A DNA stretch of 64,000 nt from Oscillospiraceae bacterium (GTDB taxonomy: Bacteria > Bacillota > Clostridia > Oscillospirales > QAMX01), in NCBI GenBank assembly GCA_015067825.1, contig SVLQ01000014.1:1-64000 (forward strand), written 5' to 3'. Position 1 is the stretch's first letter, and the number at the start of each line of letters is the position of its first letter. The position numbers and the translations under genes were made by a program. This document shows, piece after piece, positions 6,160 to 59,413 of this stretch. The notes beneath the pieces were generated by a model. It was not told the origin of the DNA. It worked only from the letters and a program-made list of their open reading frames with translations, and ran no database searches.

Positions 6160-7473
6160 ATGGCGTCCAAGATCACCGCGGTCGACCGCGGCAGTCCGGC
6201 GTTTCGCGCGGGGATCGTCCCCGGAGAAACGCTGATCTCCATCAACGGCAACGAGATCACCGACGTGCTCGATTACCGGTTCTACGCCGCCGATCCCGAT
6301 CTGCGGCTTTTGGTCGCGGACGAAAACGGCCGCACGCGTGAGATCCACATCCGAAACACCGCGTACCGTCCGCTCGGTCTGGAGTTTGAGACCTATCTGA
6401 TGGACAAGCAGACGCATTGCCACAACAAATGCGTGTTTTGCTTCATCGATCAGCTTCCCAAGGGAATGCGCGAAAGCCTCTACTTCAAGGACGACGACAT
6501 GCGGATGTCGTTTCTGATGGGCAACTACGTCACGCTCACCAATTTAAAGGAAGCCGACTTCGCGCGCATCAAGCGCCTGCGCATCAGCCCCATCAACGTC
6601 TCCGTCCATGCGACCGATCCCGACGTCCGCCGCCAAATGTGCGGCAACCGCTTTGCCGGCGACTGCTACAAGATCATGCACGATCTGGCCGCCGCCGGGA
6701 TCACGATGAACGCGCAGATCGTTGTCTGCCCCGGCATCAACGACGGCGACGTGCTCGCGCGCAGCCTCGACGACTTGATCCTCCTCTACCCCTACGTCCA
6801 GTCGATCGCAGTCGTCCCCGTGGGACTGACGAAATACCGCGAAGGGCTCGCCCCGCTCGAACCCGTGACCGAGACTTCGGCCAATGAGATCCTTGCGATC
6901 TGCGAAGGCCGCGCCGCCGCCGCACTATCCCGCCACGGTACACGCATCGTCTTCGCCTCCGACGAGATCTATATCCGCGCCGGCCGCAGCCTGCCCGATT
7001 ACGACGCGTACGAAGAATTTCCGCAGATCGAAAACGGCGTCGGCATGCTTGCCAGCTTGATCAGCGAGTTTGATTCCGCGCTGGATCTTGCCGAAGACGG
7101 CGAGGTCGCTCCGCAGAGCGTTTCGATCGCCACCGGTTCGGACGCCGCACCGTTTCTTACAAAACTCGCCGAAAAGCTCATGCGGCGCTTTCCGCAGGTC
7201 TGCTGCAGGGTCTACGCTATCGAAAACCGCTTTTTCGGCCCGCAGATCACCGTCGCCGGACTGGTGACCGGCCGCGACCTGATCGACGGACTCGCCGGCA
7301 AAGAACTCGGCGACCGCCTGCTTGTAACGCAGTCGATGCTCCGCTACGACGGCGAGGTCTTCCTCGATGACGTCACCCCCGCCGAAGTCGAGTCGGCGCT
7401 CGGTGTGCGGCTGCAGGCCGTCCCCAACGACGGCGGCGCACTCTTCGACGCGATCTGCGGCATTGACTGCTGA
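6160..7473 (+). CDS. PDZ-domain radical-SAM protein of the DUF512 family
   Basis: A 437-residue protein. A short PDZ-like region (about 1-65) is followed by C87, C91 and C94 in 'CHNKCVFC', the CxxxCxxC motif that holds the radical-SAM 4Fe-4S cluster. The rest, including 'GIEN'-like and 'GSDAAPF' segments, is the DUF512 domain. The family is widespread in Clostridia and usually sits beside der and plsY, as here; its reaction is not established. GAGAGGAG lies ahead of the ATG, and der begins 44 bases after the stop. Family call is strong; function unknown. Confidence 0.9.
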   Translation: MASKITAVDRGSPAFRAGIVPGETLISINGNEITDVLDYRFYAADPDLRLLVADENGRTREIHIRNTAYRPLGLEFETYLMDKQTHCHNKCVFCFIDQLPKGMRESLYFKDDDMRMSFLMGNYVTLTNLKEADFARIKRLRISPINVSVHATDPDVRRQMCGNRFAGDCYKIMHDLAAAGITMNAQIVVCPGINDGDVLARSLDDLILLYPYVQSIAVVPVGLTKYREGLAPLEPVTETSANEILAICEGRAAAALSRHGTRIVFASDEIYIRAGRSLPDYDAYEEFPQIENGVGMLASLISEFDSALDLAEDGEVAPQSVSIATGSDAAPFLTKLAEKLMRRFPQVCCRVYAIENRFFGPQITVAGLVTGRDLIDGLAGKELGDRLLVTQSMLRYDGEVFLDDVTPAEVESALGVRLQAVPNDGGALFDAICGIDC

Positions 7474-16299: not shown

Positions 16300-16396
16300 T
16301 CGGCAGCGGGATGCGACGACCGAACCGCGGTAACCCTTCGTCCGCATAACAACTCCCCGTTTATGCGGCACTTGACGCTCGGCCATCTACTCTGCA
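16300..16396 (-). ncRNA. Tetrahydrofolate (THF) riboswitch
   Basis: The minus-strand leader contains the conserved THF-aptamer blocks in order: GAGTAGATG, CGTCAAGTG, ACGAAGG...ACCGCGG and GCATCC. It folds as expected: a closing GCAG/CTGC helix, a GGCCGA/TCGGTC helix and a perfect CCGCATAA/TTATGCGG arm. It starts about 13 bases after the -10 box of a consensus promoter and precedes a FolT-type S component, the classical regulon member. Binding of reduced folate should favour sequestration of the ribosome binding site. Confidence 0.92.
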
Positions 16397-43404: not shown

Positions 43405-43839
43405 CTACGCCTCTTCCAGACCGGCGAGGAAACGGATCGCCTTGCGGTAACCCTCGAAGCCGAGGCCGCAGTAGGTCTTGACGCAGGCCATGCCCGCGTA
43501 GGAGACGTGGCGGAAGGCCTCGCGCTCGTAGACGTTCGACAGATGCACCTCGACCGCCGGCAGCGCGACCGCCTTGAGCGCATCCAGGATCGCCACGCTC
43601 GTATGGGTATAGGCCGCCGGGTTGATGACGATGCCATCGTAAACGCCGAGGGCCGCCTGGATCGTATCGACGAGCACGCCTTCGTGGTTCGACTGCACGA
43701 TCTCGGCCGCAACTCCGGCTTCTGCAGCGGCTTCACGGACAAACGCACAGAGCGCGGCGTAGTCGGCTTTGCCGTAGACGGCCGGTTCACGGATGCCGAG
43801 CATATTCAGGTTCGGGCCGTTAATAACAAGCAGTTTCAT
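43405..43839 (-). CDS. aroQ: Type II 3-dehydroquinate dehydratase
   Basis: A 144-residue protein from the ATG at 43839, behind GGAGGA. Catalytic residues lie in 'NGPNLNMLGIREPAVYG' (Asn and the Tyr of the lid), 'QSNHEG', 'NPAAYTHTS' with the catalytic His, and 'EVHLSN'. It removes water from 3-dehydroquinate to give 3-dehydroshikimate. The start overlaps the end of the aroE-aroK gene by 20 bases. Confidence 0.96.
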   Translation of the reverse strand: MKLLVINGPNLNMLGIREPAVYGKADYAALCAFVREAAAEAGVAAEIVQSNHEGVLVDTIQAALGVYDGIVINPAAYTHTSVAILDALKAVALPAVEVHLSNVYEREAFRHVSYAGMACVKTYCGLGFEGYRKAIRFLAGLEEA

Positions 43840-45058
43840 AAAAATCCTCCAAAATCGCCGCAGCAGCATCGGCCGCGGTTCCGTTGTTGGCAACCGTCAC
43901 GTCACTCGCGAGCGCATAAAGCGGTGCGCGCACGCGCTCCATTTCTCGGAGCGCTTCCGGGCTTTTGGACAGCGGCCGACCCGCGGTCGACAGCGTTTCC
44001 AACGCGCGCTGCAGGCAGTAAACGCGCCCGTTTTGGCGCAGAGATGCGCGATTTTTTTCCGTCAAAATGATCCCGCCGCCGCCGGCGATCACAAGACCCT
44101 TCTGTTTGCCGAAGTCGGCGGCCGCCTCCGCTTCCATTTGGCGGAACGCGGCTTCGCCCTGCGAGGCAAAGATCTCCGGCACGCTCATACCCGCACGCGC
44201 GGCGACGACTGCGTCGAGATCGACGAGCTCGCGTCCCAAACGCGCAGCCACCAGCTTGCCCACGGTCGTTTTGCCGCTGCCGGGCATCCCGACCAAAACG
44301 ACGTTTTCGACCGACTGCAGAAGCTCGCGGTAGACCCGATCCAAAACGCTCGGCGCGAGCGTTTTGCCGATGAAGCGCTCGTAGGCGTAGGCGGCCTGCG
44401 CCGTGAGCATATAAAGTCCGCCCGTGTGGGGAATGCCGCGCTCACACGCATCCGAGATGATCGCAGTACGCAGAGGATTGTAGATGACGTCGATGACGCC
44501 GCAGCAATTGGGGAAGGCATCGAGAGGGACGACGGCCTCGCCGTTTTTGGGGTACATACCGATGGGCGTCGTGTTGATGACGATGTCGCTGTCGGCCACC
44601 GGCGAAAGATCACCGTAGTTGACCGCGCCGCTGCGCGAAACGACCACGACTTCGCGCGCACCCTCGTCGGCGGCGACCGTACGCGCCGTCAGCGAAGTGC
44701 CGCCGCTGCCTAAAATCGCCACTTTGCGCCCGGCAAACGAGATGCCCGCGCGCGCCGCCATCGCCGAAAATCCGGCGTAGTCGGTGTTGTCGCCAAAGAG
44801 CGAACCGTCGGCGCGCTTGACGATCGTGTTGACGCTGCCGATCTTTTGGGCCGTCGCAGAGATCTCGTCGCAGTACGGCATCACCGTTTTCTTATACGGG
44901 ATCGTCACGTTGATGCCGCGGAAGCTTTTTTCCGTCAGAAAGGGCCCGACCGCTTCCGGCGGCATGCTCTTGAGTTCGTAGTCGTAGGCACCGAAGGCGC
45001 GATGGATCTCGGCGGAATAGCTGTGGCCCAGCCGCTCGCCGATCAGACCGAATTCCAT
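43820..45058 (-). CDS. aroE-aroK: Fused shikimate dehydrogenase-shikimate kinase
   Basis: A 412-residue two-enzyme polypeptide. Residues 1-250 are shikimate dehydrogenase: 'GHSYSAEIH' for shikimate, 'NVTIPYKK' with the catalytic Lys, 'DNTDYAGF' with the catalytic Asp, and a nucleotide loop 'LGSGGTS'. Residues about 252-412 are shikimate kinase: Walker A 'GMPGSGKTT' (257-265), the DxD in 'VDLDAVV', 'FRQMEAEA' and 'AGGGGI'. There is no frameshift or stop between the parts. It carries out two successive steps, dehydroshikimate to shikimate-3-phosphate. The separate genes are absent from this otherwise complete operon. Confidence 0.93.
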   Translation of the reverse strand: MEFGLIGERLGHSYSAEIHRAFGAYDYELKSMPPEAVGPFLTEKSFRGINVTIPYKKTVMPYCDEISATAQKIGSVNTIVKRADGSLFGDNTDYAGFSAMAARAGISFAGRKVAILGSGGTSLTARTVAADEGAREVVVVSRSGAVNYGDLSPVADSDIVINTTPIGMYPKNGEAVVPLDAFPNCCGVIDVIYNPLRTAIISDACERGIPHTGGLYMLTAQAAYAYERFIGKTLAPSVLDRVYRELLQSVENVVLVGMPGSGKTTVGKLVAARLGRELVDLDAVVAARAGMSVPEIFASQGEAAFRQMEAEAAADFGKQKGLVIAGGGGIILTEKNRASLRQNGRVYCLQRALETLSTAGRPLSKSPEALREMERVRAPLYALASDVTVANNGTAADAAAAILEDFYETACY

Positions 45059-45061
45059 GTC

Positions 45062-46204
45062 TTAGCCCTCCGAATAGCTGCCAAGGAACACGAACTGCTC
45101 CGGTCCGCCCGCCAGTTCGTCCAAGAGCGAAAGCACCGCCGGCGAATAGACCGAGGCTTCCATATCGAAATAGAAGAGGAATTCGAAATCGCGGCCGGGG
45201 ATCGGACGGCTTTCGAGCTTGGTCAGGTTCAGGCCGAGTGCCGAGAACTTCGAGATCATCGTGTACAGCGCGCCCGGCGTATGCGGCACGGAGAGCATCA
45301 GGCTGATGCGGTTGGCACCGGGATAGATCGCCATTTCTTTGGCGATGCAGATAAAGCGCGTGTAGTTGCTGTCGCTGTTCTGGATGCCGTCCTCAGCGAC
45401 CTGCAGACCGTAGAGCGCAGCGCAATCGCGCGAGGAGATCGACGCGCAATCCTTGCGGCCGCTTTCCGCGACTTTCTGCGCGGCCATTGCGGTATTTTCA
45501 CAGATCGTGACCTTGATCTGCGGGTATTTTTTCAAAAATTCGGAGCACTGGCCGACCGCCTGCTCGTGCGAGAAGATCTCGCGGATGTCGGTCATGCGCA
45601 CGCCCGGCGCAGTCAGAAGCGCGTGGTCGATCTTGAGCTTGACGCTGCGGACGATGTAGAAGCGGAAGTGGCGCATGAGATCGTAGACCTCGTTGACCGT
45701 GCCGTGGATGCTGTTTTCGATCGGCAGCATGCCGTACTGGCAGAGACCGCGTTCGACCGCGCTGAAAACACCTTCAAAATTCTTGAAGTAGATGATGTTG
45801 GCCGAGGGGAAGAGCTTGTCGCAGGCGTGCTGCGAGTACGCGCCTTCCACGCCCTGACAGGCGACGATGCCGCGTTTTGGGAAGAGCTGGGGCGTGTTTT
45901 CCAGCGCAGATTGGATCTTCGACGACAAAACACCGCCGTTTGGATTAAGCTTGCGGGTCTGATAGGAGCGGCTGAGATCAAAGAGCGTCGTATAGAGAAT
46001 GCGCGTATAGTCCTCGAGCTCTTCGCCGGATTTTTCGCAGACGCGCTCTAAGATCGAGCGTTCGCGCTTCGCGCTGAGCACGGGCAGATTGTGTTCCTTC
46101 TTGTAATCGGCGATCTTGCCGACGGTCTCCATGCGTTCGAGAAACAGGCGCAGGATCTCATCGTCGACACCGTTGAGTTTTTCGCGTAAGGCTTCCAGAT
46201 CCAT
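45062..46204 (-). CDS. pheA: Bifunctional chorismate mutase-prephenate dehydratase
   Basis: A 380-residue protein from the ATG at 46204 (GGGAGG upstream). Residues 1-85 are an AroQ-class chorismate mutase ('LREKLNGVDDEILRLFLERM'). Residues about 105-285 are prephenate dehydratase ('GVEGAYSQHA', 'PIENSIHGTVNEV', and the catalytic TRF in 'SNYTRFICI'). The tail is an ACT domain with the Phe-binding ESRP motif ('KLESRPIPG'). It converts chorismate to phenylpyruvate and should be inhibited by Phe. It ends 4 bases before aroE-aroK. Confidence 0.96.
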   Translation of the reverse strand: MDLEALREKLNGVDDEILRLFLERMETVGKIADYKKEHNLPVLSAKRERSILERVCEKSGEELEDYTRILYTTLFDLSRSYQTRKLNPNGGVLSSKIQSALENTPQLFPKRGIVACQGVEGAYSQHACDKLFPSANIIYFKNFEGVFSAVERGLCQYGMLPIENSIHGTVNEVYDLMRHFRFYIVRSVKLKIDHALLTAPGVRMTDIREIFSHEQAVGQCSEFLKKYPQIKVTICENTAMAAQKVAESGRKDCASISSRDCAALYGLQVAEDGIQNSDSNYTRFICIAKEMAIYPGANRISLMLSVPHTPGALYTMISKFSALGLNLTKLESRPIPGRDFEFLFYFDMEASVYSPAVLSLLDELAGGPEQFVFLGSYSEG

Positions 46205-46227
46205 GGTTTTTTCCTCCCAAATATCGG

Positions 46228-47307
46228 TTATTTCTTTTCCAAAAGCAGATCCATCGCGATAATCGCGGCGATCGCCTCGACACACGGCACGGCGCGCGGC
46301 ACAATGCACGGGTCGTGGCGGCCTTCGATCGTGATCGTCGTTTCTTCCATCTTCGCCAGGTCGACCGTCTGCTGCGGCTGTGCGATCGACGGTGTAGGCT
46401 TAAAGGCCACGCGGAACACCACGGGCATCCCGCTGGTCATACCGCCGAGCACCCCGCCGTGGCGGTTGGTTTTCGTACGGACGCGGCCGTTTTCGATGCA
46501 ATAGGGGTCGTTGTGCTGCGAGCCACGCATCGCGGCGGCGGCAAAACCGTCGCCGAACTCGATCCCGCGCACCGCGCCGAGACCAAAGATCGCGCTCGAC
46601 AGGCGATTCTCGACGCCGCCGTAGAGCGGTTCGCCCAAACCGACCGGCAATCCGACGATCGCGCATTCGACCACGCCGCCGACCGAATCCTTTTCGGCGG
46701 CCGCTGCGGCAATCTCTGCCTGCATGGCCTCACCCGCAGCCTCGTCCAAAACCGGGAACGCACGGCCGCCGGCAAGCGCAAGCTCTTCGGCCGTGACAGA
46801 GACGGGATCGTAGCGCGCATCGGCAATCTGGCCGACGGAGGCGATATGGGCGCCGACGAAGATACCGTGCCGCGCCAGCATCTGCTTGCAGATCGCGCCG
46901 GCCGCACAGAGCGGTGCGGTCAGACGGCCGGAAAAATGGCCGCCGCCGCGGGCATCGGCAAACCCGCCGTATTTGACCCACGCAGGATAATCGGCGTGGG
47001 AGGGACGCGGTTTGTTTTCGAGTGCGCTGTAATCCTTCGAGCGCACGTTGGTGTTTTCGATAACGGCGCAGATCGGCGAACCGGTGGTCACACCGTCGCG
47101 CACGCCGGAGAGAAAGTGCGGCAGGTCGGCTTCTTTGCGGGCGGTCGAGAACCGTTTGCCGCCCATGCGCCGTTCCATAAAGGCATAGATCTCGGCTGCG
47201 TCGACCGCTTCGCCTGCGGGCACACCGTCCATCGTCATGCCGATGGCTGTCCCGTGCGATTCGCCGAAGATCGTGATTTTCAGGTTATTTCCCAGTTCCG
47301 ATGACAT
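46228..47307 (-). CDS. aroC: Chorismate synthase
   Basis: A 359-residue protein from the ATG at 47307, which has GGAGGG upstream and overlaps the end of aroA by 23 bases. Signatures are 'FGESHGTAIG' near the N-terminus, 'GGGHFSGRLTAP' and 'RGSQHNDPY'. It forms chorismate from EPSP using reduced FMN. Confidence 0.96.
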   Translation of the reverse strand: MSSELGNNLKITIFGESHGTAIGMTMDGVPAGEAVDAAEIYAFMERRMGGKRFSTARKEADLPHFLSGVRDGVTTGSPICAVIENTNVRSKDYSALENKPRPSHADYPAWVKYGGFADARGGGHFSGRLTAPLCAAGAICKQMLARHGIFVGAHIASVGQIADARYDPVSVTAEELALAGGRAFPVLDEAAGEAMQAEIAAAAAEKDSVGGVVECAIVGLPVGLGEPLYGGVENRLSSAIFGLGAVRGIEFGDGFAAAAMRGSQHNDPYCIENGRVRTKTNRHGGVLGGMTSGMPVVFRVAFKPTPSIAQPQQTVDLAKMEETTITIEGRHDPCIVPRAVPCVEAIAAIIAMDLLLEKK

Positions 47308-48544
47308 CTGCGATCCCTCCGAGTTGTCTGAAATCTTCAAAAAAGCGCGGATACGATTTGCGCACGGCTTCGGCATGGCCGATCACGACCGGCTCCTCGC
47401 ACAAAACCGAGGCAATCGCCGCCGCCATCGCAATGCGGTGGTCGCCGCAGCTATCGACACAGCCGCCGCAGAGCTTGCCGGTGCCATAGATCACGAGCGC
47501 GTCTTCGCGCTCGCTAACATTGCCGCCGAGGGCTTGGAGCATCTGCGCCGTCGTTTGGATGCGGTCGCTCTCCTTCAGGCGCAGGCGGGCGGCATTTTCG
47601 AGCACCGTCTCGCCGCAAACGCCGGCAGCCGCGACCGAAAGGATCGGGAACAGGTCCGGACACTCCGACACGTCGATGCGCATGGGCTTGCCGTCAGCAG
47701 CGGGGGCAACCGTGTAGTCGCCGCCGGCATTCTTGCAGTCCGCGCCGAATCCGGCGAGGAGAACGGCGATCGCGCGGTCAGCTTGGGGAGAATCGGGCAT
47801 CAGGTCGGTCACGGTGACGGGGCTGCCGAGCATTCCCGCCGTGAGGAAAAACGCCGCGTTCGACCAGTCGCCCTCGACCGCCAACTTCTGCGGCCACGTA
47901 TAGCGCTGGTTGCCGGGGATCTCGTAGCCGTCGGCGGTCTCGCAGATGCGGATGCCAAAGGCGCGCAGCGTGCGCAAGGTCATTTCGACGTAAGCGGCCG
48001 ATTGGAGCTTGCTCGTGAGCACGATGCGGCTATCGGAACCGAGCATCGGCAGAGCAAGCAGCAGGCCGGTGACGTACTGTGAGCTGACGTTGCCCGGGAG
48101 CGTATAGGTACCGCCGGTCAGACGGCCGCGCACGGTAAACGGCAGGCATGGGGCAGAAAATTTGCAGCCATGGGCCTCCATTTCGCGCTTCAATTCGCCG
48201 AGCGGCCGCTCCGGCAGACGGCCATGGCCGTCAAACGCTGCGGCATCGGCAACCGCCATCGCCACCGGCAGCAAAAAACGGAGGGTCGAACCGCTTTCGC
48301 CGCAGTCGAGCGTGGGGATCTGCGCGCCGCTTTTGAACGCGCGCAGGCAGGCGATTGTCGCTAAAATATCTTCCGAAGGGTCGAAACCGGCCTCGCCGCC
48401 GACGAAACGCGCACAAAGCGCATCGAATGCGTCGCCTGCTCCATCGCACAGCGCGGCACAGATCAGAACTCTGTGGGCGTCGGATTTGGAAGCGATCGCG
48501 CGGAGGCGGCCGGAAAGGGCGTGCGGTGTGATTTTAATATCCAT
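47285..48544 (-). CDS. aroA: 3-phosphoshikimate 1-carboxyvinyltransferase (EPSP synthase)
   Basis: A 419-residue protein of two inverted domains. 'ASKSDAHRVLICAAL' binds shikimate-3-phosphate, 'CGESGSTLRFLLP' contributes the PEP site, and 'RLKESDRI' and 'DHRIAMA' are the family signature. 'GESGS' replaces the usual NAGT-type loop, as in class II-like enzymes. It sits 18 bases downstream of aroB. Confidence 0.95.
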   Translation of the reverse strand: MDIKITPHALSGRLRAIASKSDAHRVLICAALCDGAGDAFDALCARFVGGEAGFDPSEDILATIACLRAFKSGAQIPTLDCGESGSTLRFLLPVAMAVADAAAFDGHGRLPERPLGELKREMEAHGCKFSAPCLPFTVRGRLTGGTYTLPGNVSSQYVTGLLLALPMLGSDSRIVLTSKLQSAAYVEMTLRTLRAFGIRICETADGYEIPGNQRYTWPQKLAVEGDWSNAAFFLTAGMLGSPVTVTDLMPDSPQADRAIAVLLAGFGADCKNAGGDYTVAPAADGKPMRIDVSECPDLFPILSVAAAGVCGETVLENAARLRLKESDRIQTTAQMLQALGGNVSEREDALVIYGTGKLCGGCVDSCGDHRIAMAAAIASVLCEEPVVIGHAEAVRKSYPRFFEDFRQLGGIADVIGTGK

Positions 48545-48562
48545 AGAAGCCTCTCGTTTCGT

Positions 48563-49621
48563 TTATCCGGCAAACACGGTTTCCAGCGAAGCGAGCGGTA
48601 CGGGGTGCAGCACGCATTCGCCGATTTTGGCGGGCAGGACGAGCGTGATCGCGTCCCCCGCCGCTTTTTTATCGTTGCGCATGACCGACGCCAGCGTTTC
48701 GACGGCGATATCGGTTTTCGTCGGCAGGCCAAGGCGCGTCAGCAGCGCGTAGACGCGCTCGCTGACCGCCGAATCGCACAAGCCAAGGCGCACCGCCGTT
48801 TTGGCGGCGGCGACCATGCCGATGGCGACGGCGTGGCCGTGGGTCACGGCGTAATCGCTGCATTTTTCCACCGCATGACCGAGCGTATGGCCGTAGTTTA
48901 AGATTTGGCGCAGGCCGCGGTCGAATTCGTCGGCCGCGACAAATTGGCTCTTGATTGCAACGCATCGCGCCGTGATCGCTTCGATCTCGGTCTCCAGTGC
49001 ACCGGCCTCCAGCTTGGCAAACAGATCGGCATCGGCGATCACACCGTACTTGACCGTTTCGGAAACACCGTCGAGGAAGGTCTCTTTGGGCAGCGTTTCA
49101 AAGCAGGCGCAGTCGCAGAGCACGTAGGACGGCTGCCAAAACGCACCGACGAGGTTTTTGCCCGCCGGCAGATTGACGCCGGTCTTGCCGCCGACGGACG
49201 AATCGACCGCGGCGAGGAAGGTCGTCGGCAATTGGATCACGGAGATGCCGCGCAGATAGATCGAAGCGGCAAAGCCTGCCACGTCGCCGACGATACCGCC
49301 GCCCAAAGCGACGATGCAGTCCGTGCGGGTAAGGCCGTTTTCGGTCAGAAAATCGAGGATCTTGCCGATGGTTTCCAGATTTTTGCTCGTTTCACCGGGG
49401 GCAAAGGCAAATTTGCACACCTGAAAGCCCGCCGCGGAGAGCGAATCACACACGACGGGCGCATAGAGCGCTTCGACGGTCGTATCGGTGATGACAGCAA
49501 GGCGTTTGGCCTTGGTAACCGCGCGGATCGCGGTACCGGAGGAAGCAAGCACGTTGCGGCCGATCTCCACACGATAGGGTTTGGCGGCGGCCACTTCGAC
49601 CGTTTGCAGGATTCCGTTCAT
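48563..49621 (-). CDS. aroB: 3-dehydroquinate synthase
   Basis: A 352-residue NAD- and metal-dependent enzyme. 'GGGIVGDVAGFAASIYLRG' binds NAD, 'VGGKTGVN' holds the catalytic Lys, and metal ligands lie in 'ILNYGHTLGHAVE' and the late 'HGHAVAIGM'. It closes DAHP to 3-dehydroquinate. It begins 15 bases after tyrA. Confidence 0.96.
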   Translation of the reverse strand: MNGILQTVEVAAAKPYRVEIGRNVLASSGTAIRAVTKAKRLAVITDTTVEALYAPVVCDSLSAAGFQVCKFAFAPGETSKNLETIGKILDFLTENGLTRTDCIVALGGGIVGDVAGFAASIYLRGISVIQLPTTFLAAVDSSVGGKTGVNLPAGKNLVGAFWQPSYVLCDCACFETLPKETFLDGVSETVKYGVIADADLFAKLEAGALETEIEAITARCVAIKSQFVAADEFDRGLRQILNYGHTLGHAVEKCSDYAVTHGHAVAIGMVAAAKTAVRLGLCDSAVSERVYALLTRLGLPTKTDIAVETLASVMRNDKKAAGDAITLVLPAKIGECVLHPVPLASLETVFAG

Positions 49622-49636
49622 ATCGTTTCCTCCGTC

Positions 49637-50488
49637 TTACCCCTGCGTACCGTCCATACGGTCGCAGAGAGCTTTCATCATCACGCCGTCCTCCAACAGA
49701 CGGCGGAGCGCATCGGCGTCGTTTTCTTTCAGCGCCCGGCTGTACTCGGTCAGACGATCGGCCAGCGTATCGATCTCGGTGATCAGATTGTCGCGGTTTT
49801 CAAAGAAGAGCTCGACCCACATCGTCGGATTCAGGGTGGCCACACGCGTCATATCGCGGAAGCTGCCTGCCGAAAGACCGCTGTGGTAGGGTGCGGTCGG
49901 ACTTTTGATGTAGGCGTTGGACAAAACGTGGGCGAGCTGCGAGGTATAGGCGATGATGCGGTCGTGTTCCTCGGGCGTGCGGATCGTGATGCGGCCGAAG
50001 CCGATGGAGAGAAAGAGCTTTTTCGCCCGTTCGATCTCGCGGATATCGGTATCGGCGTAGGGCGTTAAGATCATCGACGCTTTTTTGAACATTTCGCTCG
50101 TGGAGAAGTCAAAGCCCGAGCGCTCGCGGCCGGCCATCGGATGGCCGCCGATGAAGACAAAACCGTGCTCCTCCGCCAGATCCTTCACGCGGTCGCAGAC
50201 GTATTTCTTGACGCCGCAGCAATCGACCACAAGGGCGTGCTTGGCAATGCGCTTGGCGTTTTCGCGCAGCCAGCGCACGGCGGCTTCGGGATACAACGCG
50301 ATGATCACCGTTTCGCATTCGGGGAGATTTGCTTCCGTCAGCGCATCGTCGATCGCTTCGGTCAGCTTGGCGCGCAGCAGAACGCTCTGCACGATGTCGG
50401 CGCCCAAAACGGTGTGGTCGGTCTGCTCTTTGATCGCCTTGGCGATCGAACCGCCGATCAGACCAAGCCCGATAACAGCAATTTTCAT
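49637..50488 (-). CDS. tyrA: Prephenate dehydrogenase
   Basis: A 283-residue protein from the ATG at 50488. The NAD loop is 'GLGLIGGSIAKAI', and the catalytic region includes 'GGHPMAGRERSGFD' and 'YTSQLAHVLSNAY'. It oxidatively decarboxylates prephenate to 4-hydroxyphenylpyruvate for Tyr. The C-terminal ACT domain found in Bacillus TyrA is missing, so allosteric Tyr control by that domain is not expected. It is 13 bases downstream of aroF. Confidence 0.94.
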   Translation of the reverse strand: MKIAVIGLGLIGGSIAKAIKEQTDHTVLGADIVQSVLLRAKLTEAIDDALTEANLPECETVIIALYPEAAVRWLRENAKRIAKHALVVDCCGVKKYVCDRVKDLAEEHGFVFIGGHPMAGRERSGFDFSTSEMFKKASMILTPYADTDIREIERAKKLFLSIGFGRITIRTPEEHDRIIAYTSQLAHVLSNAYIKSPTAPYHSGLSAGSFRDMTRVATLNPTMWVELFFENRDNLITEIDTLADRLTEYSRALKENDADALRRLLEDGVMMKALCDRMDGTQG

Positions 50489-50501
50489 GGAGCCCGCCTC
50501 C

Positions 50502-51527
50502 CTATTTCGCCATGCGGCCGTGGGAGTACGGCAGGATATTGCGCACGGCGTCGGCGACCTCGGCAAATCCTTCAGGCGTCAGCGACTGCGGGCCGTCGCA
50601 GAGGGCGTGAGCGGGATCATTGTGAACCTCGATGATCAGGCCGTCGGCACCGGCTGCCGTCGCCGCCAGCGACATCGGCATGACCATGCGCGAAATACCG
50701 GTGGCGTGGCTGGGGTCGATGATGACCGGCAGATGGGTCATTGCCTTGAGGGCCGGAATGGCAGAGATATCGAGCGTATTTCTCGTGTAGGTTTCAAAGG
50801 TGCGGATGCCGCGTTCGCAGAGGATCACGTTGTCGTTGCCGCCGGCCATAATGTACTCCGCGCTCATCAAAAGCTCCTGCAGCGTGTTGGCGAGGCCGCG
50901 TTTGAGCAAAATCGGCTTGCGGCTGTGGCCAAGTTCTTTCAGAAGCTCAAAGTTCTGCATATTTCTCGCGCCGACCTGAATGACGTCGACGTCGGCGAAG
51001 AGCGACAGCTGCGAGATATCCATGATCTCCGAAACGATAGGCATGCCCGTCAGCTTCTTCGCCTCCAGCAGAAGGCGGATGCCGTCGCCGCGCAGACCCT
51101 GGAAGGCGTACGGCGAGGTACGGGGCTTGAACGCGCCGCCGCGCAGGATCGTCGCGCCCGATTTCTTCACGCTTTCGGCGACCGCGCAGATCTGCTCTTC
51201 CGATTCGACCGAGCACGGCCCGGCGATCAACTGGAAGCTGCCGTTGCCGATCGAGATCCCCTGCGCCGAGTCGATCACGACCTCGGTGTCGGCAGGGTGG
51301 AATTTGCGGTTGGCATTTTTATACGGTTCCTGAATGCGCTTGACTTCTTCGACGATGTCGAGCGCTTTGATCAGATCGATGTCCACGCTGCTCGTGTCGC
51401 CTACGAGACCGAGAATCGTGTGCTTCATACCTTCGCTGAAGTGGATCTCGATCTCCATGCTTTTCAGCCAATCGACCAAATTATCGAGTTGCGCCTGATT
51501 GTACTGTTCTTTGAGAATGACTACCAT
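50502..51527 (-). CDS. aroF: 3-deoxy-7-phosphoheptulonate (DAHP) synthase, type I-beta with regulatory domain
   Basis: A 341-residue protein. An N-terminal ferredoxin-like regulatory domain (about 1-70, 'MVVILKEQYNQAQLDNLVDWL') precedes the KDO8PS-type barrel with 'LIAGPCSVES', 'LRGGAFKPRTSPYAFQGL', 'PVIIDPSHATG' and 'IIEVHNDP'. In characterised relatives the first domain gives feedback inhibition by Tyr or Phe. It catalyses the committed step of the shikimate pathway. It is the first gene of the aro operon, behind the attenuator leader, with GGAGGA ahead of the ATG. Confidence 0.96.
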   Translation of the reverse strand: MVVILKEQYNQAQLDNLVDWLKSMEIEIHFSEGMKHTILGLVGDTSSVDIDLIKALDIVEEVKRIQEPYKNANRKFHPADTEVVIDSAQGISIGNGSFQLIAGPCSVESEEQICAVAESVKKSGATILRGGAFKPRTSPYAFQGLRGDGIRLLLEAKKLTGMPIVSEIMDISQLSLFADVDVIQVGARNMQNFELLKELGHSRKPILLKRGLANTLQELLMSAEYIMAGGNDNVILCERGIRTFETYTRNTLDISAIPALKAMTHLPVIIDPSHATGISRMVMPMSLAATAAGADGLIIEVHNDPAHALCDGPQSLTPEGFAEVADAVRNILPYSHGRMAK

Positions 51528-51581: not shown

Positions 51582-51617
51582 AAAAAAGACCCCCGCGGCG
51601 TTTGCCACAGAGGTCTT
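51582..51617 (-). terminator. Attenuator terminator before aroF
   Basis: On the minus strand AAGACCTCTGTGGC pairs with GCCGCGGGGGTCTT through Watson-Crick and G-U pairs, followed by TTTTTT. It lies 55 bases before the aroF start. The segment TGCCAC (minus strand, 51634-51639 complement) can instead pair with GTGGCA inside the 5' arm, opening the terminator. Confidence 0.88.
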
Positions 51618-51638
51618 CGGTTTCCTTTTGCAAGTGGC

Positions 51639-51659
51639 AGGCGACTGAAAAAATCGCCT
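51639..51659 (-). promoter_or_regulatory. Leader hairpin at the stop codon of the aromatic leader peptide
   Basis: AGGCGA and TCGCCT pair around a nine-base loop, right at the leader-peptide stop codon. A ribosome finishing the peptide would cover it, so it is a candidate pause or switch hairpin of the attenuator. Confidence 0.65.
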
Positions 51660-51778
51660 TACCCGTTCAGTGAAACCAGATCTTTGGACAAACACGAATA
51701 AGCCTTACCCCCATAAAAGTAGGTAAAGCTAAAGCGGAAATAAAAATATCCGATTGTCGAAACGCTCGTCCGAACCAC
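51659..51778 (-). CDS. Aromatic-rich leader peptide of the aro operon
   Basis: A 39-residue peptide from the GTG at 51778, with AAGGAG (51789-51794) 10 bases upstream. Residues 11-22 read YFYFRFSFTYFY: nine Phe or Tyr codons out of twelve (51713-51748). It lies between a consensus promoter and a terminator upstream of DAHP synthase. A ribosome stalling at these codons when Phe- or Tyr-tRNA is scarce would favour the antiterminator. The same frame extends upstream without a ribosome binding site, so the GTG start is preferred. Confidence 0.88.
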   Translation of the reverse strand: MVRTSVSTIGYFYFRFSFTYFYGGKAYSCLSKDLVSLNG

Positions 51779-51811
51779 GATCCGCCGTCTCCTTATACTG
51801 AACTGCCTAAT

Positions 51812-51840
51812 ATTATACCACACCCGCTCCTGTTTGTAAA
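51812..51840 (-). promoter_or_regulatory. Promoter of the aromatic amino-acid operon
   Basis: Minus-strand TTTACA (51835-51840), 17 bases, TATAAT (51812-51817), about 15-20 bases before the leader-peptide ribosome binding site. Confidence 0.87.
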
Positions 51841-57769: not shown

Positions 57770-59080
57770 TTAGATCAGCTTGCGCTTATCGATCACTCGA
57801 ACCGCCTTGCCTTCGCTGCGCACGATGCTCTTCGGCGGGACGAGGTGGACCGCAGGATTGATGCCGAGCATGGTTTTCAATGCGCCGGCGAGGGATTTTT
57901 CCATCGCCATCACTTCGGCGACCTTATCCGTGAATTTTTCGGCCGGCATTTCGACGTTGACGTCAAAGGTGTCGTTGTTTTTCACGCGGTCAACGACGAT
58001 CTGATAGTTCGGTTCATAGCCTTCCTTCAGCAGGACGGTTTCGATCTGGCTGGGGAACACGTTGACGCCGCGGATGATCAGCATATCGTCGGTACGGCCC
58101 ATCGGTTTGGCCATTTTGACGAGCGTACGGCCGCAGGAGCACGGTTTGCGCGAGAGCACGCAGATGTCGCGCGTGCGGTAGCGCAGCAGCGGGAAGGCTT
58201 CTTTGTCGAGCGAGGTGAACACGAGTTCGCCCTTGCTGCCCTCGGGCAGCACTTCGCCCGTGTCGGGATCGATGATTTCTGCGTAGAAATGGTCTTCGTT
58301 GATGTGCATACCGGTCTGCTCGCTGCATTCAAACGAGACCCCCGGACCGGTGGTTTCGGTCAGACCATAAATATCGTAGGCTTTGATGCCCAGCGTTTTT
58401 TCAATGCCGCGGCGCATTTCTTCCGTCCACGGTTCCGCGCCGAAGATACCCGCTTTCAGCGGAATATCCTCCGGTTTGTAGCCCATTTCCTTCAGGCTTT
58501 CGCCGATGTACGCCGCATACGACGGGGTGCAGCAGAGGATCGTCGCCTGCAGGTCGGTCATGAACTGGATCTGCCGTTCGGTATTGCCGGAGGAGAGCGG
58601 CAGCGTCAGGCAGCCGACCTTATGCGAACCGCCGTTGAGACCCGGGCCGCCGGTGAACAGGCCGTAGCCGTAGGCGACCTGGCAAACATCCTTTTTGGTG
58701 CCGCCGACCGCAACGATCGCGCGGGCGCAGCAATCTTCCCAAAGGTCGATATCGTTCTGCGTATAGAAAGCGACCACACGGCGGCCGGTCGTGCCCGAGG
58801 TGGACTGGATGCGCACACAATCTTCCAACGGCTTGGCCAGCAGACCGTAGGGATACGCATCGCGGAGGTCTGCCTTGGTCAAAAACGGCAGCTTGTGCAG
58901 ATCGTCGATGCTTTGGATATCATCGGGAGAAACGCCTTTTTTGTCCATCAGATCGCGGTAGTAGGGCACGTTTTCGTAAACGTGTTTGACCTGCTTGACC
59001 AGTTTTTCCGACTGGAGCTTGCGCATTTCCTCTCTCGGCATGGTTTCAATTTCTTTTTGGAAGTAGTTCTGCTGTTCCAT
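57770..59080 (-). CDS. paaK: Phenylacetate-CoA ligase
   Basis: A 436-residue adenylate-forming enzyme of the PaaK family. The phosphate loop is 'SSTSGTTGRRVV'-like ('QSTSGTTGR'), the adenine motif 'YGLTETTGPG', and the C-terminal 'RGVNVFPSQIE' the hinge region. It makes phenylacetyl-CoA (or indole/hydroxyphenyl analogues) from acid, CoA and ATP. Since a Phe T-box controls it, an anabolic role is likely: phenylacetyl-CoA can be carboxylated by arylpyruvate:ferredoxin oxidoreductase to give Phe. AAAGGATG lies ahead of the ATG. Confidence 0.94.
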   Translation of the reverse strand: MEQQNYFQKEIETMPREEMRKLQSEKLVKQVKHVYENVPYYRDLMDKKGVSPDDIQSIDDLHKLPFLTKADLRDAYPYGLLAKPLEDCVRIQSTSGTTGRRVVAFYTQNDIDLWEDCCARAIVAVGGTKKDVCQVAYGYGLFTGGPGLNGGSHKVGCLTLPLSSGNTERQIQFMTDLQATILCCTPSYAAYIGESLKEMGYKPEDIPLKAGIFGAEPWTEEMRRGIEKTLGIKAYDIYGLTETTGPGVSFECSEQTGMHINEDHFYAEIIDPDTGEVLPEGSKGELVFTSLDKEAFPLLRYRTRDICVLSRKPCSCGRTLVKMAKPMGRTDDMLIIRGVNVFPSQIETVLLKEGYEPNYQIVVDRVKNNDTFDVNVEMPAEKFTDKVAEVMAMEKSLAGALKTMLGINPAVHLVPPKSIVRSEGKAVRVIDKRKLI

Positions 59081-59122: not shown

Positions 59123-59405
59123 GACAAATAAAAAAGCCCTCCGCATTCCGAAAGAATACAGAGGACGAGAAAAAACTCCCGTGGTACCACCTCAATTCGC
59201 CGTCATCTCGCAATAACGGCCTTTTCAGGTACACAAAATACCTTAGTTCTGTAACGGGAACACCCGTTGCATCCTACTACGGAACGATCCGATTCAGCGC
59301 ACTGCTAACAGAATGAATTCGAGAAGGACGCCCCCTTTGCCTCGCACCGACCGGCAACTCTCTCCAGGTTCTTTCCAACCTACTGGTTTCTGCTCTTCGC
59401 ATTTG
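59123..59405 (-). ncRNA. T-box leader, specifier UUC (Phe), upstream of paaK
   Basis: The minus-strand leader has the standard parts in order: AGCAGAAAC...AGTAGG and GGAGAGAG with GGTGCGAGGC in stem I, the specifier-loop side CTCGAATTCATTC with codon UUC at 59315-59317, and the T-box sequence TGAGGTGGTACCACGG (59179-59194). A terminator CCTCTGTATTC/GAATGCGGAGG followed by TTTTTT lies at 59130-59164. Uncharged tRNA-Phe should stabilise the antiterminator and switch on paaK and the ACT gene. Confidence 0.95.
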
Positions 59406-59413
59406 TTGCGGAT

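Follow-up and report, generated by a model that had tools for sequence, protein, structure and literature searches.

The window analysed here, a stretch of DNA 64 kb in length, carries on its minus strand an operon for aromatic amino acid synthesis. Its first gene is aroF, encoding DAHP synthase (50502..51527, ATG at 51527; NF006421 471 bits, TIGR01361 381 bits). This is followed on the same strand by tyrA (49637-50491), aroB (48563-49621), aroA (47285-48544), aroC (46228-47304), pheA encoding a chorismate mutase-prephenate dehydratase (45062-46207), an aroE-aroK fusion (43820-45058) and aroQ (43405-43845), each identified by NCBIfam and Pfam matches. The gene order is therefore aroF-tyrA-aroB-aroA-aroC-pheA-aroEK-aroQ, with the part after aroF spanning 43405..50491 (minus strand), and these gene identities indicate that the operon combines the common pathway with both the Phe and the Tyr branch.

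All elements ahead of aroF likewise read on the minus strand. A putative sigma-70-like promoter, read from the sequence, is located at 51812..51840 (TTTACA at 51835-51840 and TATAAT at 51812-51817, with a 17 nt spacer). A Shine-Dalgarno sequence, AAGGAG (51789..51794), precedes a leader ORF, MVRTSVSTIGYFYFRFSFTYFYGGKAYSCLSKDLVSLNG, that begins with GTG at 51778 and runs for 39 codons to a TAA ending at 51659 (51659..51778). Within this ORF a stretch of regulatory codons, YFYFRFSFTYFY (51713..51748), is aromatic at nine of its 12 positions, and the leader as a whole contains five Phe and five Tyr codons. Such density is rare: the six reading frames together yield 99,122 stop-free 12-codon segments over the 64 kb, of which three contained at least eight aromatic codons, and all three were this leader stretch. 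A first, sequence-only reading of the locus had proposed a leader with its own ribosome binding site; AAGGAG, GTG and the aromatic run are all present, and its coordinates were right.

Between the leader and aroF lies a predicted intrinsic terminator (51582..51617), composed of AAGACCTCTGTGGC AAAC GCCGCGGGGGTCTT (strands 3 and 4) followed by six T residues. Its 14-bp stem (51586-51617) has a predicted energy of -24.0 kcal/mol and the T-run occupies 51582-51587, in agreement with the earlier description of a strong terminator just ahead of aroF. An ORF with a ribosome binding site, enriched in codons for the end products and separated by a terminator from the first structural gene, is the arrangement of an attenuator.

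Conservation of the leader among relatives

When the window leader was used in a DNA similarity search, two family members matched over the aromatic-codon core only, and no NCBIfam model matched the leader peptides, this one included. Because the DNA search reached only this core, conservation was tested through the aroF protein, with relatives gathered from GTDB-species contigs, the window's family and the window's order. The sequence-only reading had suggested looking for the same leader in relatives, and automatic detection found an aromatic-dense leader ORF in 161 of 212 distinct aroF upstream regions, with the aromatic codons conserved. With a start codon and Shine-Dalgarno sequence required, a leader was detected in 70.3% of real sequences, compared with 1.4% of reverse complements and 2.1% of shuffled sequences; at a threshold of at least six aromatic codons in 12 the values were 63.7%, 0 and 0.3%, respectively. 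At about a quarter of the related aroF loci the automatic search did not detect a leader, and its first-pass start codon calls were sometimes placed too far upstream.

Named isolates with the leader include Angelakisella massiliensis, Yanshouia hominis, Oscillibacter valericigenes, Sporobacter termitidis and Anaerotignum neopropionicum. Leaders were also matched in MAGs labelled Lentisphaerae, Victivallales, Planctomycetia and Thermoguttaceae, where the labels are as given and mis-binning is possible. The window leader can be aligned by eye with the family relative MTRTNFAAEYFYFSFTGFYFGKAYSAFAAK, and a C-terminal motif, GKAxxxxAxN, recurs in many relatives. The Shine-Dalgarno sequence is present in relatives too, as is the stop codon, and terminators were found for 113 of 137 relatives' leaders (median -20.5 kcal/mol), leaving 24 of 137 without one by automatic search.

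Several variations on this theme were observed. One relative (L206, G170:C21) carries two tandem aroF genes, at 6495 and 5143, and both have an aromatic leader, which is of mixed codons for the first gene (F5 Y6) and Phe-rich for the second (F6 Y2). In some families, leaders of pheA-type operons (L213, L217, L218, L229 and L233) share a conserved Trp (SFLFSYGWARFM...GFFG), possibly reflecting a different architecture or an additional Trp signal. Two short leaders (L013 and L038) consist of nearly all-Tyr codons (MLQARYAKYYYVLYQTCRA and MLHSRFAYYYALYRKSRA), with no aro genes recognised within 2.5 kb downstream.

Codon mix and operon content

A leader peptide that senses Phe and Tyr predicts that its codon mix will track the content of the operon downstream, and this is what was seen. 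The median of Y/(F+Y) was 0.75 for tyrA-only operons (n=8), 0.43 for operons with tyrA and the rest of the genes (n=90) and 0.26 for operons without tyrA (n=34). Independent contrasts on the aroF tree, which includes 19 changes of operon class, assigned an effect of +0.16 to tyrA (p 2.8e-4) and of -0.27 to the rest (p 3.5e-4). Leader codons totalled 715 for Phe, 515 for Tyr and 18 for Trp.

Genomes with two aroF operons allow the comparison to be made within one cell. In all eight the leader of the tyrA copy was Tyr-rich and that of the pheA copy Phe-rich, as illustrated by G126 (MFTANKKGYYYYGGRYYYAVF... versus MIAVLFAAIFFYFYFF...). For a ninth genome (G072), an aroF-tyrA operon with a Tyr-rich leader was predicted before the sequence was read; MLKRTGYGYGYYRCYFASGVSACP was found with tyrA next to it, a prediction that leaned on the congeners G098 and G146. 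The nine same-genome pairs, all of which fit (9/9), span five genera. Because the codon mix follows the downstream genes, the family appears to provide a natural experiment on what each leader senses, and it supports the earlier proposal that mixed codons would sense both end products at once. In the window the regulatory codons match the amino acids that the operon is predicted to make.

Alternative pairings and ribosome position

Among the clear relatives, codons ahead of the aromatic run (strand 1; often FAAEY, TTTGCAGC...) pair with the codons after it (strand 2; often FAANK, ...GCTGCAAA), and strand 2 is also complementary to the 5' arm of the terminator (strand 3; CCGCAG...). Across 113 leaders the mean duplex energy was -14.9 kcal/mol for 2:3 within loci versus -11.2 kcal/mol with partners swapped between loci, and -20.6 versus -15.5 kcal/mol for 1:2. 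None of 5000 permutations was as low (z about -16), with the caveat that permutation leaves phylogeny in. In addition, an inner hairpin showed two-sided compensatory changes among relatives (ACC/GGT 15, GCC/GGC 7, ACT/AGT 3, GCT/AGC 3 and GCG/CGC 2), and this covarying RNA hairpin would explain the conserved GK(A/V) residues. The predicted pairings 1:2, 2:3 and 3:4 are mutually exclusive and, across the family, maintained by covariation, as classical attenuation requires.

The window leader has the same parts, with the switching pairs sitting inside the leader ORF, a point that the sequence-only reading had missed. Strand 1, GACAATCGGATA (51747..51758), was assigned from the predicted fold and the family-wide pairing test as the partner of strand 2, TATTCGTGTTTGTC (51687..51700), with which it would form the protector. 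The inner hairpin, AGCTTTACC...GGTAAGGCT (51701..51730; predicted -13.0 kcal/mol), is built from aromatic codons and the conserved GKA codons, and the predicted fold of 1:2 together with this hairpin is -19.3 kcal/mol. The GTGTTTGTC part of strand 2 (51687-51695) is complementary to GGCAAACGC in strand 3 (51598-51606), a candidate antiterminator with a predicted duplex energy of -13.1 kcal/mol. A further predicted pairing joins the leader Shine-Dalgarno region to the end of the ORF (51797-51803 with 51665-51671, minus strand; GTTCAGT/ACTGAAC and more) and could restrict renewed translation of the leader after full transcription.

We simulated the effect of ribosome position by masking the RNA at set positions before strand 4 is made, a crude simulation with assumed footprints. 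Over the family, the mean probability that strand 3 is held by upstream RNA was 0.68 for a mid-aromatic stall, 0.51 for a ribosome at the stop codon and 0.56 with no ribosome (mid-aromatic stall against the other two states, p 5e-11 and 4e-12), whereas dinucleotide-shuffled leaders were flat (0.58, 0.56 and 0.59). The window leader gave 0.60 with the ribosome on the first aromatic codon, 0.47 in the middle of the run, 0.43 on the stop codon and 0.40 without a ribosome, the right direction. Unlike the family-wide test, the switch predicted for the window alone is weak, and in one close relative (L087) the response was inverted. When the full-length window leader was folded to equilibrium, the terminator was favoured whatever the ribosome state; switching would therefore have to be kinetic.

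Two other structures had been noted by the sequence-only reading. A hairpin at the leader stop codon, GGCGATTTTTTCAGTCGCC (GGCGA/TCGCC, about 51640..51658; predicted -7.9 kcal/mol), does exist in the window, but it was not seen as a common feature among relatives of the family. The second is a complementary pair, TGCCAC (51634-51639) and GTGGCA (51603-51608), that had been put forward as an antiterminator option. As a variant of attenuation rather than an alternative to it, the window might switch through this pair and not through strand 2 of the leader; its two sequences are present, with a duplex energy of -10.7 kcal/mol, and the leader of the window has diverged within its family. We consider this doubtful. 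The pair is predicted to form in every ribosome state that was simulated, making it a competing static pair, it falls outside the arrangement common to relatives, which uses the leader-internal strand 2, and the duplex with strand 2 is the stronger.

We propose that the aroF leader attenuates transcription of a complete shikimate-Phe-Tyr operon by the trp/phe type of mechanism, through a ribosome translating the leader peptide, and we put the probability of this reading at about 0.92. Against it stand the GTG start codon, the weak folding result for the window and the quarter of related loci in which no leader was detected. The parts, their conservation, the co-variation of the pairings and the relation of codon mix to operon content can be read from sequence. 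From them we infer the start of the transcript, that the leader is translated, that transcription terminates and that amino acids act on the switch. When charged Phe- and Tyr-tRNA are ample, a ribosome would pass the aromatic codons, reach the end of the leader and cover strand 2, allowing strands 3 and 4 to form the terminator, so that transcription would end ahead of aroF. When either charged tRNA is scarce, the ribosome would stall within the aromatic run, keeping strand 1 open and the inner hairpin melted; strand 2 could then pair with strand 3, the terminator would not form and the operon would be transcribed. If the leader is not translated, 1:2 would form and the terminator would win. 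With its mixed codons the leader would respond to Phe and Tyr alike, as suits an operon that contains both pheA and tyrA. The earlier identification of the site as a Phe/Tyr leader-peptide attenuator is upheld by relatives that keep the leader, Shine-Dalgarno sequence, stop and terminator and in which the codon mix follows operon content.

The same stalling could in principle control translation of aroF or the stability of its mRNA, since termination is a prediction and 24 of the 137 relatives' leaders had no terminator by automatic search. We regard this as improbable, because in the other 113 a strong hairpin with a T-run separates the leader from aroF and because strand 2 is matched to the 5' arm of the terminator.

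T-boxes, significance and known systems

Could aroF be under a T-box, or under some other riboswitch that binds a ligand or tRNA, with the aromatic ORF being incidental? This genome has many T-boxes (12 matches, none at aroF), and one clade of the window's order carries a T-box directly upstream of aroF, heading aroF-aroB-aroC-pheA-aroA (L239, L247, L248, L255 and L258). Aligned at what we take to be the specifier position, these T-boxes carry UUC. Upstream of the window aroF, however, no match to the T-box family RF00230 was obtained at the gathering threshold nor at E values up to 10. No other Rfam family, Phe_leader, Trp_leader and His_leader included, exceeded its gathering score at the site; of these three only His_leader scored at all (14.8 bits against a gathering score of 49, E 5.7). 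Together with the conservation of the aromatic ORF with its Shine-Dalgarno sequence and terminator, and a codon mix that follows operon content, this makes riboswitch control very unlikely. A hydrophobic aromatic peptide with a recurrent C-terminal GKAxxxxAxN might instead be a small functional (e.g. membrane-active) peptide with a terminator of its own, but this is hardly credible given that the covarying hairpin accounts for GK(A/V), that length and sequence vary widely while the aromatic codons persist, and that the choice of Phe or Tyr tracks the downstream genes.

Attenuation by a leader peptide thus remains the preferred reading for the window, and leader peptide and T-box look like alternatives at aroF. 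This agrees with the expectation in the sequence-only reading that T-boxes usually do this job in Bacillota, as the one clade has an aroF T-box instead. A T-box was also considered as the general substitute at leaderless loci and rejected: none was found in the first 20 loci, mostly leaderless or weak, yet it is present in the one clade. Several genomes of the T-box clade also have an orphan aroF without a leader (e.g. L228 and L234).

Elsewhere in the window, a T-box at 59158-59406 (minus strand, 103.9 bits) lies directly ahead of a phenylacetate-CoA ligase-like gene (57770-59080; TIGR02155 528.6 bits, under the model's cutoff), and its sequence close to the specifier region is GAATTCATTC. 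For an aromatic-acid gene a Phe specifier, if true, would be of interest. A THF riboswitch aptamer is located at 16302-16396 (minus strand, 84.8 bits).

Looking beyond the window, it is likely that the leaders represent a widespread, undescribed family of aroF attenuators in Clostridia (plus the matches in MAGs that bear the names of other phyla). On this reading, evolution has retuned the Phe:Tyr ratio with every operon split and every loss of tyrA or pheA, a cell with paralogous DAHP synthase operons has separate Tyr and Phe sensors, and leader and T-box interchange at the same gene. T-boxes are the usual explanation where charged tRNA controls amino acid operons in Bacillota; in a large set of gut-type Clostridia that role would here fall to a leader-peptide switch. 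For studies of how an attenuator integrates the signals of several amino acids, the family would also supply many ready-made sensors, for Phe, for Tyr or mixed.

Leader-peptide attenuation is a classical mechanism. A search of literature outside the subscription journals found no paper on the clostridial leader family or its codon tuning, so that the mechanism looks to be of a known kind while its clostridial distribution and codon tuning appear unreported in the literature searched. The enterobacterial pheL-pheA and trpL attenuators (Rfam Phe_leader and Trp_leader) share the 1:2, 2:3 and 3:4 hairpins and the regulatory codons in a leader ORF, but they use codons for a single amino acid, belong to other operons and had no Rfam match at the window site. 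The T-box (RF00230) senses charged tRNA at the same gene in the one clade of the order, but by direct tRNA binding and with no leader ORF, and none is found at the window aroF.

Two systems at aroF itself can be compared by description. In the account of Neshat et al. 2014 given in PMC11802643, the AroR leader peptide of Corynebacterium glutamicum contains Phe-Tyr-Phe upstream of aroF, and ribosome stalling raises transcription under Phe limitation, with a reported response to Phe and not to Tyr. As described there, AroR resembles the clostridial leaders in placing Phe and Tyr codons ahead of a DAHP synthase operon, and differs in its actinobacterial host, an aromatic run of only three residues and its Phe-only response. 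The uORFC-13-1 motif, a uORF just before a terminator that occurs only upstream of aroF, was proposed to sense Phe incorporation; its 24 examples, from Acholeplasma and unassigned environmental sequences only, contain at least one Phe codon (PMC8632094). It shares the combination of uORF and terminator at aroF and could be a distant relative of the clostridial leaders, although no Phe/Tyr tuning is described for it. Finally, leader peptides have a precedent in Firmicutes at the hisS paralogues of bacilli (PMC2965389): there the codons are for His and the genes encode tRNA synthetases, but, as would be the case at aroF, a leader peptide replaces a T-box at the same kind of gene.
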